Source of the DNA: Propionibacteriaceae bacterium
Lineage (GTDB): Bacteria > Actinomycetota > Actinomycetes > Propionibacteriales > Propionibacteriaceae
Reading direction: 5' to 3'
NCBI GenBank assembly: GCA_030532575.1
Contig: JAUNKV010000001.1
Coordinates: forward strand, 124,001 to 188,000
DNA length: 64,000 nt
The notes under the pieces were generated by a model. That model was not told the DNA's origin and ran no database searches. It saw only the letters and a list, made by a program, of their open reading frames with translations. Of this stretch, positions 51,835 to 57,070 are shown one piece after another; the stretch's first letter is position 1, and every line of letters starts with the position of its first letter. A program made the position numbers and the translations under genes.

Positions 51835-52650
51835 TCACCACAGCGAGATCCGGCGGTTCCAGATGTGTCGCATCCAGATCACCATGGCGATGATTCCGGC
51901 GCCCACCAGCGGAATCCACCCCACGGGGATGAACGGCAGATCCTTCTCGACCGCGAGCGCCTCCAGGACGTTGACCACCTCCAGCTTCATCCCGCTCCCG
52001 CGGTCCGTGTAGGCCAGCGGGATCAGCAGGGAGGCGAAGCCCAGTACCTGGGTGACCAGCCAGGTACCCGCCCACACCAGGATCGGTCCGGCGATTCCCA
52101 GGCGAACCAGGGGCGGGGTGCTGCCGAGCGACGCGGCGAAGTACAGGTTCACCTGACCGCCCCAGAGGGAGAACCACATCAGCAGGGCCAAGGTGATGAG
52201 CTGCCAAAGGGGCACCACCTCACCGACCAGCCGAAGCCCGGTGGCCAAGGTCTCCCATCCATCCTTCCCCGGGGTCATCACCGGGACCATGAAGGGGATC
52301 GTCACGATCACCATGACCGCCATCCAGACGGCGGCGAAGGCGGCGATCAGCCCCGCCCACAGCAGCCTCGCCCGCAGGATGAGGCTGCCCTTGACGGGGA
52401 GACTGTGGGTCAGGTAACCCCGCTCCCCGAATCCCGTGCTCCAGAAGTCGTGGGCCAGCCAGATCTGGGACGCGAACCAGGTGCCACACAGCAGCACCAC
52501 GACCAGGAGTACCGCCAGCTCGGACAGCACCGGAATTCTGAGGCTCACCAGGAGGTTGCCCGTGAGGATGCTGAGGGTTGCGATCCCGTGGATCACCCCC
52601 AGGATGGGCAGGGTGCGACGTGCTTCGTGCGCGATCACTGTGCCGACCAT
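51835..52650 (-). CDS. ABC-2-type membrane permease
   Basis: 271 aa, about six membrane segments and few soluble loops, starting 16 nt inside the ATPase gene. Sequence motifs are weak; position and hydrophobicity support its role as partner of the ATPase. Third gene of a GntR-ATPase-permease operon; substrate unknown, maybe a cell-envelope-active compound. Confidence 0.75.
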   Translation of the reverse strand: MVGTVIAHEARRTLPILGVIHGIATLSILTGNLLVSLRIPVLSELAVLLVVVLLCGTWFASQIWLAHDFWSTGFGERGYLTHSLPVKGSLILRARLLWAGLIAAFAAVWMAVMVIVTIPFMVPVMTPGKDGWETLATGLRLVGEVVPLWQLITLALLMWFSLWGGQVNLYFAASLGSTPPLVRLGIAGPILVWAGTWLVTQVLGFASLLIPLAYTDRGSGMKLEVVNVLEALAVEKDLPFIPVGWIPLVGAGIIAMVIWMRHIWNRRISLW

Positions 52651-53342
52651 GAGTATGCCTTTCGGAAGAGTGCGTCGATGCTGAGACCGTGGGTGGCGCG
52701 GAGGTCGTCGACCTCGCCGCTGAGCAGGACCTTCCCTGCCCGCATCATCACCACGGAGTCCAGGATGGGTTCCAGGTCGTGGATGAGGTGGGTGGAGATG
52801 AGCACCGTGGAGTCCTCACCCAGGGTGCGGACGATGCCTTCGAGGATGACCTCGCGGGCTGCGGGGTCCACACCGGAGATGGGTTCGTCCAGCAGGAAGA
52901 CCCGCGCGTCCCGGGACATCGCGAGTGCGATCTGCGCCTTCTCCCGCATCCCCTTGCTCATGCTCTTGAGCTTCATCCGCACATCCAGACCGAAGAAGGC
53001 CGCTGACTCCCGCGCCTTGTCGGGGTGGAAGTCAGGGAAGAAGTCGGTGTAGAGGCCGATGTGCTGCTCCAGACTGTGCCCCAGGGTGAGATAGTTGGCA
53101 TCGGGCAGGAAGCTGACCTTGGCCTTCGACTCCGGCCCCGGGGCGTGGCCGCAGATCTGGACCTCGCCGTCGTGGTCCTGCATGACGCCTGCCAGGACCT
53201 TGAGCAGGGTGGTCTTGCCGCAGCCGTTCTCCCCGAGCAGCCCGACAATCCTGCCCCCGGTGAGCTCCAGGTCGAGGGAGTCGAGGGCGGTGACGGGACC
53301 GAACCGCTTGGTGAGGCCGCGCACCCGGATGAGTGTGTTCAT
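52635..53342 (-). CDS. ABC transporter ATP-binding protein (YtrB-like)
   Basis: 235 aa. Walker A GENGCGKT, a degenerate signature MSKGMREK in place of LSGGQ, and Walker B VFLLDEPISGVDP. The ATG at 53342 overlaps the GntR stop by 4 nt. Matches exporters encoded after YtrA-type repressors. Confidence 0.88.
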   Translation of the reverse strand: MNTLIRVRGLTKRFGPVTALDSLDLELTGGRIVGLLGENGCGKTTLLKVLAGVMQDHDGEVQICGHAPGPESKAKVSFLPDANYLTLGHSLEQHIGLYTDFFPDFHPDKARESAAFFGLDVRMKLKSMSKGMREKAQIALAMSRDARVFLLDEPISGVDPAAREVILEGIVRTLGEDSTVLISTHLIHDLEPILDSVVMMRAGKVLLSGEVDDLRATHGLSIDALFRKAYSWSAQ

Positions 53343-53698
53343 GGCTGAAGCCACCTTTCTGTGATGAGTTGGACGGCGTCGGCGCTGGTCAGCCCGACCC
53401 CTTGACAGCGTCGGATGTACTCATCGGCTGCCGATGCGGCGAGATCACGACGAAGCGCCGCGATGCGCTGCTGGTCATCGGTGATGAAACGCCCCACGGC
53501 CCGCTCGGAGCGGCACAGGCCCTCGCGTTCGAGCTCGACCAGGGTGCGCTGCACCGTGTTGGGGTTGACCCCCAGCTCGGCAGCCAGCTCGCGCACCCCG
53601 GGGATCTGCACACCCGGCGGCCAGTTGCCGACGACGATGCGTCTGGCGAACTCCTGCTTGAGCTGGAGCCAGATGGGGCGACTCGGATCGAATTCCAC
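53339..53698 (-). CDS. GntR-family repressor, YtrA subfamily
   Basis: 119 aa, the short GntR form with only a small C-terminal dimerisation helix. The winged helix shows IPGVRELAAELGVNPNTVQR. GTG 53698 is preferred: GGAGGG lies 8 nt upstream; a GTG at 53719 would begin inside the operator. Autoregulation through the palindrome at 53718-53741 is expected. Confidence 0.85.
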   Translation of the reverse strand: MEFDPSRPIWLQLKQEFARRIVVGNWPPGVQIPGVRELAAELGVNPNTVQRTLVELEREGLCRSERAVGRFITDDQQRIAALRRDLAASAADEYIRRCQGVGLTSADAVQLITERWLQP

Positions 53699-53717
53699 GA
53701 CCCCCTCCCTCCGTATC

Positions 53718-53741
53718 ACTGTATTAAGTGATTAATACAGT
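53718..53741. promoter_or_regulatory. YtrA-type operator palindrome
   Basis: ACTGTATTA-AGTGAT-TAATACAGT: 9-bp perfect arms with a 6-bp spacer, 19 bp upstream of the GntR start. AT-rich in a GC-rich region, and the site includes a possible -10 (TAATAC) on the minus strand. Confidence 0.75.
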
Positions 53742-54497: not shown

Positions 54498-55361
54498 TCA
54501 GGCGAGCCGCAGGGCCACCTCGGCGCGACGCACCACCAACCGTTGCCCCCATTCCAGGCGCAGGAAGTCGGACTCCAGACCATCGCCGAAGACCACGAGG
54601 CGGCCGCGCGCCACCAGCTCGACCTCCTCGCCGTCGCCCACCAGGCCGTGCACCAGCTCCGTTCCCACACCACCCAGGGGCCAGGCCTCCCGCACGAAAT
54701 AGGCCAGCTCTACCGACCCCGGCCCGGGGAGTGCGAATCCGGGACGGTTCTGCCGCCACAGCGAGGCCAGCCAGCCCGAGGCCCCGGTCCCCGTCCCGAC
54801 GATCACTCCGGAGGAGGACTGCTCCTCCCGCTCCCCCGCCACCTCGAGGACATAGCGCGATGACTGATGCCCCCGATCCCCGATGTAGACCTCATTGAGG
54901 GCCTGGAGCCGCTGCCCGTCGTCCAGCACGGCCTCCACCAGCCAGCGCTCCTCGGCCGCATCCCCAGCCCCCTCCAAGATGTGTTCCAGGCTGGTCACCG
55001 TGTACCGACACAGGGGACCTCGCCCCTGCGGGTTGATGCCGACGACGAGCTGGCCGTTCAGGTACTTGGCGACGTTCGCGACGAGCCCGTCCTGGCCGAC
55101 CACGACCACCAGGTCGTCGGCCTCGAAGAGGAATCGGGAGAGCATCGAACGCTCCACCAGTGCGCTGCGCCAGTCGTCCGGGATCACGGCCATCACCTCA
55201 CCCAGGGTGCTGCGCTGCGCCCGGTCGGCGGCCAGCAGCGCCTCGATCCGCTGGCCGCGACCTGCGAGGAAGAACTCCACTGCCCCCAGGGTGGAGTGCC
55301 GATCACACAGCTCCTCGAGCTCGGTTCGACGGTGCACCACGACCATCCGGGGCGCACTCAT
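54498..55361 (-). CDS. Divergent NAD-kinase-like protein
   Basis: 287 aa with the order of NAD-kinase motifs but altered key residues. The GGDGT loop reads GQDGL (residues 89-93), followed by a GIN strand (VVGINPQGRGP), LNEVYIGD (about 155-162), and VGTGTGASGW (188-197) where NADK has the TPTGSTAY loop. The fold is likely NADK/DAGK-like; kinase activity is uncertain with the second Gly and Thr of GGDGT lost. It overlaps the SPFH gene stop by 4 nt, so the two proteins are made together. Confidence 0.72.
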   Translation of the reverse strand: MSAPRMVVVHRRTELEELCDRHSTLGAVEFFLAGRGQRIEALLAADRAQRSTLGEVMAVIPDDWRSALVERSMLSRFLFEADDLVVVVGQDGLVANVAKYLNGQLVVGINPQGRGPLCRYTVTSLEHILEGAGDAAEERWLVEAVLDDGQRLQALNEVYIGDRGHQSSRYVLEVAGEREEQSSSGVIVGTGTGASGWLASLWRQNRPGFALPGPGSVELAYFVREAWPLGGVGTELVHGLVGDGEEVELVARGRLVVFGDGLESDFLRLEWGQRLVVRRAEVALRLA

Positions 55362-56296
55362 GCCCGCGCCCCCTCGAGCAGCCGCTGGAGCGCACCACCC
55401 AGCATGTCGGGGGTCACCGTGAGGGAGTCCACCTTCGGCAGCACTGCCGCGATCTCCGGGAGCATCGCGGCGAGGATGGCCAGCCGGTCGGCCTCACCCA
55501 AGGTCTGCAGCTTCGCAGTCAGGACCTGCCGCTCGGCCTCGGCGACCAGACGGCTGCGCTCCACGGACTGTTCGGTGCGTCGTCGCTCATTGGCCCCCTC
55601 CAGCTCGACGAGCTCCGCCTGTCGCCTGGCCAGCTCGGTGCGATTGTTCAGCTCGTTCTCCTTGATGGCACGCTCCCGCTCGACCGCCTGGGCGCGACGC
55701 TCGTAGGTGGCCCGGTCAGCCTCGGCCTGTGCGGCTTCCCGGGTGATGGTCTGGCAGATCCGCTCCATCTCCTCGTCGGCGCGCAGTGCGAGCACACGCA
55801 CCTCGGCCACCTCGATCCCGGCCTCGACCAGGTCGGCGACTCCGGTGAGGGCTGCCGCCAGGGCAGTGCCCACGTGATCGAATCCGCCGTCGAGCACCTG
55901 CTCGAGTGGGAGCCGTCCGATCACCTCGGCCACGACCTGCTGGGCCCGCTCCACCATGCGGGTCTGCACCGTCTGGAGTGGCGTCCCGCTCCAGGCTCCC
56001 GTTGCCGGATCGACGGTGAAGTCAAAGCGCCGGGCCACCAGCAGGGCATCCAGCAGGCGTGCAATGAAGGTCAGCTGGACGCTGACCTCCTGGCGGTCAG
56101 CGGTGACGGCCCGGATGATGCTGCCGAATCCCAGGTCTTCCCGGGGCACCTCGGCCAGCGAGGTGCCGAGCGGGTTGAACCAGGCCGCAGCCCCGACACC
56201 CAGGCTACGAAGGACACCACCCTTGGTGATGAGCAGTTCGCGATTGGTGTCAACCGTGACGTGGGACAGGAACGGGTACCTGCGGATGGTGGCCAT
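55358..56296 (-). CDS. SPFH/Band 7 domain protein
   Basis: 312 aa. N-terminal Band 7 (prohibitin/stomatin-like) domain, residues about 5-190 (TVDTNRELLITKGGVLRSLG; LLLEQV-like oligomer strands), then a long charged Ala/Glu/Arg helix (about 190-275) predicted to be coiled coil, and a hydrophobic tail. No clear membrane anchor. ATG 56296 has AGGAGG 5 nt upstream; a longer frame to 56347 begins inside the promoter. Divergent from the NrtR-like gene. Confidence 0.82.
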   Translation of the reverse strand: MATIRRYPFLSHVTVDTNRELLITKGGVLRSLGVGAAAWFNPLGTSLAEVPREDLGFGSIIRAVTADRQEVSVQLTFIARLLDALLVARRFDFTVDPATGAWSGTPLQTVQTRMVERAQQVVAEVIGRLPLEQVLDGGFDHVGTALAAALTGVADLVEAGIEVAEVRVLALRADEEMERICQTITREAAQAEADRATYERRAQAVERERAIKENELNNRTELARRQAELVELEGANERRRTEQSVERSRLVAEAERQVLTAKLQTLGEADRLAILAAMLPEIAAVLPKVDSLTVTPDMLGGALQRLLEGARA

Positions 56297-56313
56297 GTGA
56301 TCCTCCTGAAGAA

Positions 56314-56370
56314 TTTCTTGTTGGAATGACAGTATTTTGCGGCCCATATTTTTGTCAACTCAACAAGAAA
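56314..56370. promoter_or_regulatory. 57-bp dyad operator between SPFH and NrtR-like genes
   Basis: TTTCTTGTTG-N3-TGACA-N21-TGTCA-N3-CAACAAGAAA. Outer (10 bp) and inner (5 bp) arms share the same centre at 56342, so the whole region is two-fold symmetric. It covers the SPFH promoter and reaches to within 20 bp of the NrtR-like start. Likely target of the NrtR-like regulator; inference. Confidence 0.65.
56329..56358 (-). promoter_or_regulatory. Promoter of the SPFH/NADK-like operon
   Basis: Minus-strand TTGACA (56358-56353, perfect consensus) and TACTGT (56334-56329) with 18 bp between. It lies wholly within the dyad. In the plus direction TACACT (56378-56383) is 6 nt before the NrtR-like GTG. 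Confidence 0.65.
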
Positions 56371-56389
56371 CCTTGGGTACACTGAACCC

Positions 56390-57070
56390 GTGCACCTGCC
56401 CACGCTCACCCTCGCCGTCGATCTCGTGATACTCACCATCGACCAGGACCACCTCAAGGTGGCCCTGGTCCGCCGCGGCATCCCTCCCTTCAAGGGGGAC
56501 TTCGCCCTGCCCGGCGGTTTCGTGCTCGACCATGAGTCGGTCCTCGACGCCGCACGCCGGGAGCTGGTCGAGGAGGCCGGTCTCGTGGTCGGCCCGGCCC
56601 ATCTGGAACAGCTCGCCACCTTCGGGGAACCGGGACGCGACCCGCGCGGCCGCGTGGTCTCCGTGGCCCATCTGGCCCTCACCCCTGAGCCCGGCCCCCT
56701 CACCGCCGGGAGCGACGCCGCCGAGGCCGCCTGGTTCGATGTCACCGAGCTGCCCTCGCTGGCCTTCGACCACGCCGACATCCTGGCCGTCGGCCTGGAG
56801 CGCGCCCGGGCCAAGCTGGAGTACACCACCATCGCCACGAAGTTCTGCGCCCCGGAGTTCACCATGCGGGAGCTGCGCGCGGTCTACGAGACGGCCTGGG
56901 GGCAGCAGATCGATCCCAGGAACTTCTCCCGCAAGGTGCTGGGCTCCCCCGGCTTCGTCGTCGAATCCGGTGTCCGCTCCGGGGGGCGGGGCCGCCCCGC
57001 CGCCCTGTACCGGGCCGGGGAGGCCACCTGGCTGCACCCGGCCATCCTGCGCGAGCCCTCAGCCGAGTAG
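56390..57070 (+). CDS. NrtR-like Nudix transcriptional regulator
   Basis: 226 aa. Residues about 8-140 are a Nudix domain with a complete box (GFVLDHE, then RELVEEAGL after 7 residues); residues about 145-222 are a winged helix (FTMRELRAVYETAWGQQIDP, NFSRKVLGSPGFV). NrtR proteins sense ADP-ribose and repress NAD genes; here the box is intact, so hydrolase activity may persist. GTG start 6 nt after TACACT. The likely target is the divergent SPFH/NADK-like operon. Confidence 0.85.
   Translation: MHLPTLTLAVDLVILTIDQDHLKVALVRRGIPPFKGDFALPGGFVLDHESVLDAARRELVEEAGLVVGPAHLEQLATFGEPGRDPRGRVVSVAHLALTPEPGPLTAGSDAAEAAWFDVTELPSLAFDHADILAVGLERARAKLEYTTIATKFCAPEFTMRELRAVYETAWGQQIDPRNFSRKVLGSPGFVVESGVRSGGRGRPAALYRAGEATWLHPAILREPSAE

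Follow-up and report, generated by a model that had tools for sequence, protein, structure and literature searches.

What does a regulator of the Nudix-winged-helix kind control when it faces, across a short and symmetric spacer, genes for an SPFH protein and for a protein resembling nicotinamide adenine dinucleotide (NAD) kinase? The question is raised by positions 54498 to 57070 of a 64,000-nucleotide stretch (the window) from a Propionibacteriaceae bacterium (assembly GCA_030532575.1, contig JAUNKV010000001.1, positions 124,001 to 188,000). An earlier note on this DNA had described a Nudix-winged-helix gene diverging from two overlapping genes for a Band 7 and a NAD-kinase-like protein, and both the coordinates and the domains were confirmed. 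The note had also proposed an NAD(P)-linked membrane-scaffold module under ADP-ribose control. The link to NAD(P) is supported here: the gene neighbourhood and an operator found at pncB-pncA in four genomes agree with an SPFH-kinase operon of this kind standing opposite an NrtR-like regulator. The scaffold is not supported. The reading adopted here, with moderate confidence, is that the operon is an accessory one, linked to NAD(P) and repressed by a protein of the NrtR type. The three genes are as follows.

54498..55361, minus strand: NAD-kinase-like protein gene (287 residues; nearest to mitochondrial NADK2)
55358..56296, minus strand: SPFH (Band 7) protein gene (312 residues; no clear transmembrane segment; long C-terminal helix)
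56390..57070, plus strand: NrtR-type regulator gene (Nudix domain, its Nudix box complete, at the N terminus and NrtR winged helix at the C terminus; start codon GTG; transcript probably leaderless)

A conserved gene set and its tandem operators

Loci were collected by likeness to the kinase-like protein alone, giving 35 distinct loci with the window included; L003, L004 and L007 duplicate L051, L068 and L053 and each pair was counted once, and L022, at a contig end with all three genes partly present, was excluded. The SPFH gene lies directly upstream of the kinase-like gene in all 35 loci, overlapping it by 4 bp in the window and with gaps of -4 to 190 bp overall (that in L058 is unclear). 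A Nudix-winged-helix regulator gene is close by in 24 of the 35, divergent in 21 and on the same strand in three (L008, L010 and L011, from Myxococcota and Planctomycetota), and none was seen near the module in the remaining 11. The three genes are therefore neighbours in other genomes too, one of the two points on which the earlier note had staked its proposal, and regulator, SPFH protein and NADK2-like protein are a conserved gene set. Members were found in Actinomycetota, Pseudomonadota, Myxococcota, Planctomycetota and Spirochaetota. Plasmids of Rhizobium etli and Providencia carry the same gene order with a divergent annotated Nudix gene, the kinase-like gene being labelled "sugar kinase" in the former, and a Treponema plasmid carries SPFH and kinase genes without the Nudix gene. 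An apparent SPFH-kinase fusion in L058 (one 630-residue frame) was rejected because the junction codon contains an ambiguous base (X) and may be a stop; the SPFH alignment (A2) was made without this locus. No description of the SPFH-kinase-NrtR set was found in the open-access literature searched.

The spacer between the divergent genes had been taken for one symmetric element of 57 bp covering a consensus promoter. The dyad is present, with 10-bp arms at 56314-56323 and 56361-56370 around a centre at 56342 (arms matched in none of 100 base shuffles), and TTGACA lies inside it on the minus strand at 56353-56358. It resolves, however, into two tandem 21-bp palindromes, each roughly TTATCGTCAnnnTGACGATAA; the 10-bp arms correspond to the outer half-site of each copy, the 5-bp arms to the inner one. 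In the two nearest aligned relatives both 21-bp sites are kept and the long outer symmetry is lost, and a single long operator was rejected for this reason. The elements of the spacer are listed below.

56315..56335, no strand: operator copy A, TTCTTGTTGGAATGACAGTAT; contains the predicted -10 of the SPFH promoter
56349..56369, no strand: operator copy B, TTTTTGTCAACTCAACAAGAA; contains the predicted -35 of the SPFH promoter
56329..56358, minus strand: predicted SPFH-kinase operon promoter; TTGACA (56358-56353), 18-nt spacer, TACTGT (56334-56329)
56378..56383, plus strand: predicted -10 of the regulator gene; TACACT, 6 nt ahead of the GTG

Two operator copies are present in all 21 divergent regions. 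When each locus was tested with a motif built without it, the first or second site was reached in none of 500 shuffles at any of the 21. The copies are spaced by 33-34 bp in 18 regions and by 37, 42 and 58 bp in L058, L064 and L061, the last having a third copy between the other two. When the motif was scanned across the 35 loci (533,494 positions), the 61 top-scoring matches all lay upstream of SPFH genes, the weakest scoring 16.1 and the next match 12.8. Nine of the ten actinobacterial loci without an adjacent regulator, which played no part in building the motif, also have two copies, and in all two tandem copies stand upstream of SPFH in 30 of 31 actinobacterial loci. Further sites were seen on a plasmid of Streptomyces yangpuensis (two strong ones) and in Providencia (several related ones; 0/300 shuffles). 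A different element, TTAGATGC ... GCATCTAA-like, is shared upstream of SPFH by two loci of other phyla (L009 4925-4970 and L010 4783-4838) and is perhaps another operator.

The predicted operon promoter has its -35 in the distal and its -10 in the proximal operator. The arrangement TTGACx, 17-18 bases, TAnnnT directed toward SPFH recurs in 30 of 31 actinobacterial loci, against a shuffled mean of 0.185 loci (the -35 variant in L054 is TTGATA); a second prediction for the window uses the same -35 with the -10 in another register. On the other side, TAnnnT stands 6-7 bases ahead of the regulator start in 16 of the 21 divergent loci (shuffled mean 2.19), a distance which suggests that the regulator transcript is leaderless. 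The simplest reading of this layout is that occupancy of both copies would repress both genes.

Links of the operator to NAD metabolism

The same operator was found away from the module. In a genus taken as Streptomyces, seven genomes lack a regulator next to their module but have a regulator paralogue ("type-2") elsewhere, and in all seven one operator copy lies upstream of this paralogue (scores 22.4-25.5). In four genomes of the genus an operator lies just upstream of pncB-pncA, genes for nicotinate phosphoribosyltransferase and for an isochorismatase-family, nicotinamidase-like protein (L190 3882, L191 3980, L192 4147 and L195 3798; motif scores 23.1-27.1). The sharing of an operator with pncB-pncA therefore ties the operon to NAD control of the NrtR type. 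Furthermore, regulators of a "type-1" group, which have a variant operator, were found in one case (variant TTATAGTCAnnnTGACTATTA) in an operon with a nicotinamide mononucleotide transporter and an AAA_28 ATPase, which we infer to be NadR-like, and in another beside an ADP-ribosylglycohydrolase (L136 5397-7877; L135 7205-8976). In the genome G214 the neighbours of a regulator include an FAD_binding_2 protein, possibly nadB. Relatives of the module regulator are thus located among NAD and ADP-ribose genes. A wider pattern run over ten genomes gave, among the matches listed, 6 to 29 strand matches per genome against 0 to 3 for a reversed control. High-scoring copies were also seen near genes without identification at L198 4211 and L194 3768, the latter between a PAS-GAF-SpoIIE phosphatase gene and one for a 250-residue protein without a Pfam match.

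Several results weigh against so tidy a picture. The pncB sites come from nine places picked by eye out of the wider pattern run. Of the other five, three (L193, L196 and L197) fall within called genes and score weakly with the full motif, and two are the copies in L194 and L198. The look at pncB covered four of the seven genomes. Of three other genomes lacking an adjacent regulator, G317 and G419 have distant regulators with weak upstream motif matches (11.5 and 11.9), and upstream of the distant regulator in G214 there is no motif match. The motif scan found no recognisable operator in the actinobacterial locus L042, nor the motif in four loci of Myxococcota, deltaproteobacteria and Planctomycetota or in Rhizobium, Cupriavidus and Roseomonas. 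In the window's own genome a narrow pattern matched the two module sites and one further place exactly (G000:C31:57548-57562), with 2 and 1 matches for the reversed pattern; given this control the further match may be due to chance, and only the module sites are established as operator there. Finally, nearly every sampled genome of the genus taken as Streptomyces (58 of 61) has the type-2 regulator, against 28 of 61 for the module kinase (two of the 58 regulator genes and several of the 28 kinase genes being fragmented or incomplete). These counts rule out a regulator dedicated to the module in that genus, where the module is an accessory target of the type-2 regulator.

The operon products and the effector

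The kinase-like protein stays below two profile cut-offs for NAD kinase. Its best NCBIfam match, NAD kinase (9.6e-07), gives 28.6 bits where the cut-off is 260, and Pfam NAD_kinase gives 12.2 bits where it is 25.5. By this protein the nearest named kin of the window is Arachnia propionica OH887 (87% identity). The window's genome has one clear copy (a second match has E 0.155) and, elsewhere, a separate canonical NAD kinase above the Pfam cut-off. The protein nevertheless has the NAD kinase fold, with human mitochondrial NADK2 (C5orf33) as its best match by both sequence profile and structure. The two share an N-terminal stretch, SSG in place of the DG of the canonical rows shown, and TGTG-W in place of TPTGSTAY. 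The module protein differs from NADK2 of the mitochondrial type, to which plant NADK3 also belongs, in being bacterial, in its changed GGDG and in that its gene adjoins one for an SPFH protein at all loci inspected. When pieces of human NADK2 were used for ranking, 19 of 24 module proteins stood above the best canonical NAD kinase, the window's protein falling below it (29.9 against 34.4 bits). A tree was rejected as proof of NADK2 ancestry because an unrooted tree of three groups must look as it does.

Whether the protein is still a NAD kinase bears directly on the reading of the operon. Excerpts of PMC8553519 list GGDG, NE/D and region II as NAD kinase motifs. In the module proteins the second glycine of GGDG is replaced by Gln, Pro or Ser (GQDG, GPDG, GSDG), and in region II the Asp is replaced by Ser and the Tyr also changed; these changes count against the reading adopted here, and because of them NAD kinase activity is not assured. 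The protein could instead have become a sensor of NAD(P) or ADP-ribose, or a kinase of another adenylate, to which the SPFH assembly responds. We consider this unlikely but the most serious of the alternatives: it would account for the low Pfam score, the altered GGDG and the presence of a separate canonical enzyme, but the Asp of GGDG and the NE/D motif are kept (across 35 rows the catalytic D91 and N156 show no change and Glu157 hardly any), and the SSG and TGTG-W changes are common to human NADK2, which the same excerpts report to be an active NAD kinase.

The SPFH protein matches Pfam Band_7 at 4.8e-11 (43.5 bits; cut-off 23.6). Like HflK, erlin, prohibitin, flotillin and vault SPFH proteins it has an SPFH fold followed by a long helix, and it differs from them in its NAD-kinase-like partner and in lacking a clear transmembrane segment. 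None was predicted by hydropathy or by the structure model, which begins with strands, and the membrane scaffold of the earlier note is to that extent unsupported. The highest 19-residue hydropathy is 1.55, and eight of 35 relatives pass 1.6 (highest 1.81); the protein may still be anchored peripherally. A fixed partner gene is also a property of SPFH-NfeD operons, according to the portion of PMC13086221 available, the partner here being the NAD-kinase-like protein.

The regulator matches Pfam NUDIX (5.8e-18) and NrtR_WHD (2.2e-13), both above cut-off, and scores 117.6 bits against a cut-off of 400 with the NCBIfam equivalog NF050029; its predicted domains thus place it in the NrtR superfamily, outside that equivalog. 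No second copy was found in the window's genome at E 0.01 or better. Its resemblance to the NrtR proteins of S. oneidensis and M. smegmatis extends to the Nudix and winged-helix domains, divergence from the facing genes, a palindromic operator common to NAD-salvage genes in four genomes, and the arginine that contacts ADP-ribose. It differs in its target, the SPFH-kinase operon, in having two operators astride a promoter and in an operator sequence other than the mycobacterial one. In the available parts of PMC4666351 the S. oneidensis arginine is described as contacting ADP-ribose and as lost in the arabinose-sensing AraR; by alignment to 3gz5, it corresponds to the second arginine of an RDPR motif kept in 27 of 28 module regulators. 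The same parts of that paper, with those of PMC6800001, describe the NrtRs of NAD metabolism as having an impaired Nudix box and several as inactive. Among the module regulators, by contrast, 19 of 21 actinobacterial members have a complete box and all 21 retain its glutamates, which the seven other members have lost. Given the intact box, it is possible that the actinobacterial regulator destroys its own inducer.

ADP-ribose is on these grounds the likely effector. The same architecture could respond instead to NAD, another nucleotide sugar or a sugar, and ligands do vary within the family, C. glutamicum NdnR responding to NAD and B. thetaiotaomicron AraR to arabinose according to the excerpts of PMC4666351. 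A different effector is nonetheless doubtful, since AraR is without the second arginine of RDxR that the module regulators keep, and sister regulators are located among NAD and ADP-ribose genes.

Distribution, defence and the proposed switch

The kinase-like gene is patchy, being found in 12 of 296 genomes sampled from the phylum and 19 of 147 from the family. In the window, in L051-L053 and in two of eight genus members fetched around hemW, the module lies between hemW and an SDR gene; it is missing from the hemW surroundings in the other six (not all six genomes were searched whole). In L182 hemW and the SDR gene are within about 40 bp of each other with no module there, and in four of these six no match to the SDR gene was found near hemW. 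This pattern of presence and absence fits a unit that comes and goes. Another stretch of 1.6 kb occupies the module's place in L185 (7146-8794). Adjoining the SDR gene in the window are genes for a GntR-type regulator (Pfam) and an ABC-ATPase-like protein (52635-53719), relatives of which lie near hemW in nine of 11 genus loci, with or without the module, L185 and L189 having neither.

Such a distribution might be expected if the module sensed NAD cleavage and served against phages or in other conflicts, and NAD-cleaving defence systems produce ADP-ribose. The neighbours include single strong PADLOC matches to PDC-S23, PDC-S05, WYL and JetD (one protein each). This role is, however, very unlikely: no PADLOC model matches the SPFH or kinase proteins, the regulator is only a weak candidate (PDC-S07, 8.2e-05), no toxin-like partner was seen, and no PADLOC family has more than three matches among 148 neighbouring proteins (no background computed). 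These proteins came from 31 of the 35 loci, with those longer than 600 residues and the window, L010, L063 and L064 omitted. The defence role that the earlier note had allowed for thus gains no support from PADLOC, which is not a disproof. A phage-borne module was likewise set aside, the phage collection giving no match and viral contigs one locus; in this locus (L145 712-5861) Nudix, SPFH and kinase-like genes lie together on a 257-kb contig of a viral collection, whose viral origin is putative. That the symmetry is due to chance or an RNA hairpin with no relation to the regulator is extremely improbable. AT-rich spacers can give long dyads by chance, and the long outer symmetry is itself unconserved; but 30 of 31 loci have both of the 21-bp sites, and further copies stand ahead of regulator and pncB genes elsewhere.

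On the reading adopted here, the switch may be pictured as follows. A regulator dimer on each operator copy would block the operon promoter and its own, and ADP-ribose or another product of NAD turnover would release it. In actinobacteria the regulator, through its complete Nudix box, might then hydrolyse the inducer and reset the switch. The operon would supply an SPFH oligomer, as a ring or cage, together with an NADK2-type enzyme that converts NAD to NADP by phosphorylation and is probably kept in place by the SPFH protein. NADP(H) would in the end be produced in a burst, alongside NAD salvage, while NAD is consumed.

A bolder version, which we regard as a long shot, would make the SPFH-linked proteins the bacterial source or sister of mitochondrial NADK2 and the SPFH protein a soluble ring or cage that houses the kinase. 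If true, this would be a compartment for NADP production that ADP-ribose switches on during NAD breakdown. A published phylogeny, in the excerpts of PMC6675116 at hand, gives no consistent prokaryotic sister of the eukaryotic NAD kinases, and the SPFH-linked family now offers a specific candidate for kinship with the mitochondrial enzyme. More generally, an ordinary-looking pair of genes of the "hypothetical / sugar kinase / SPFH" kind gains a regulatory and metabolic context, with a well-defined operator available for direct tests, and the association suggests a physical link of SPFH assemblies to NADP supply.

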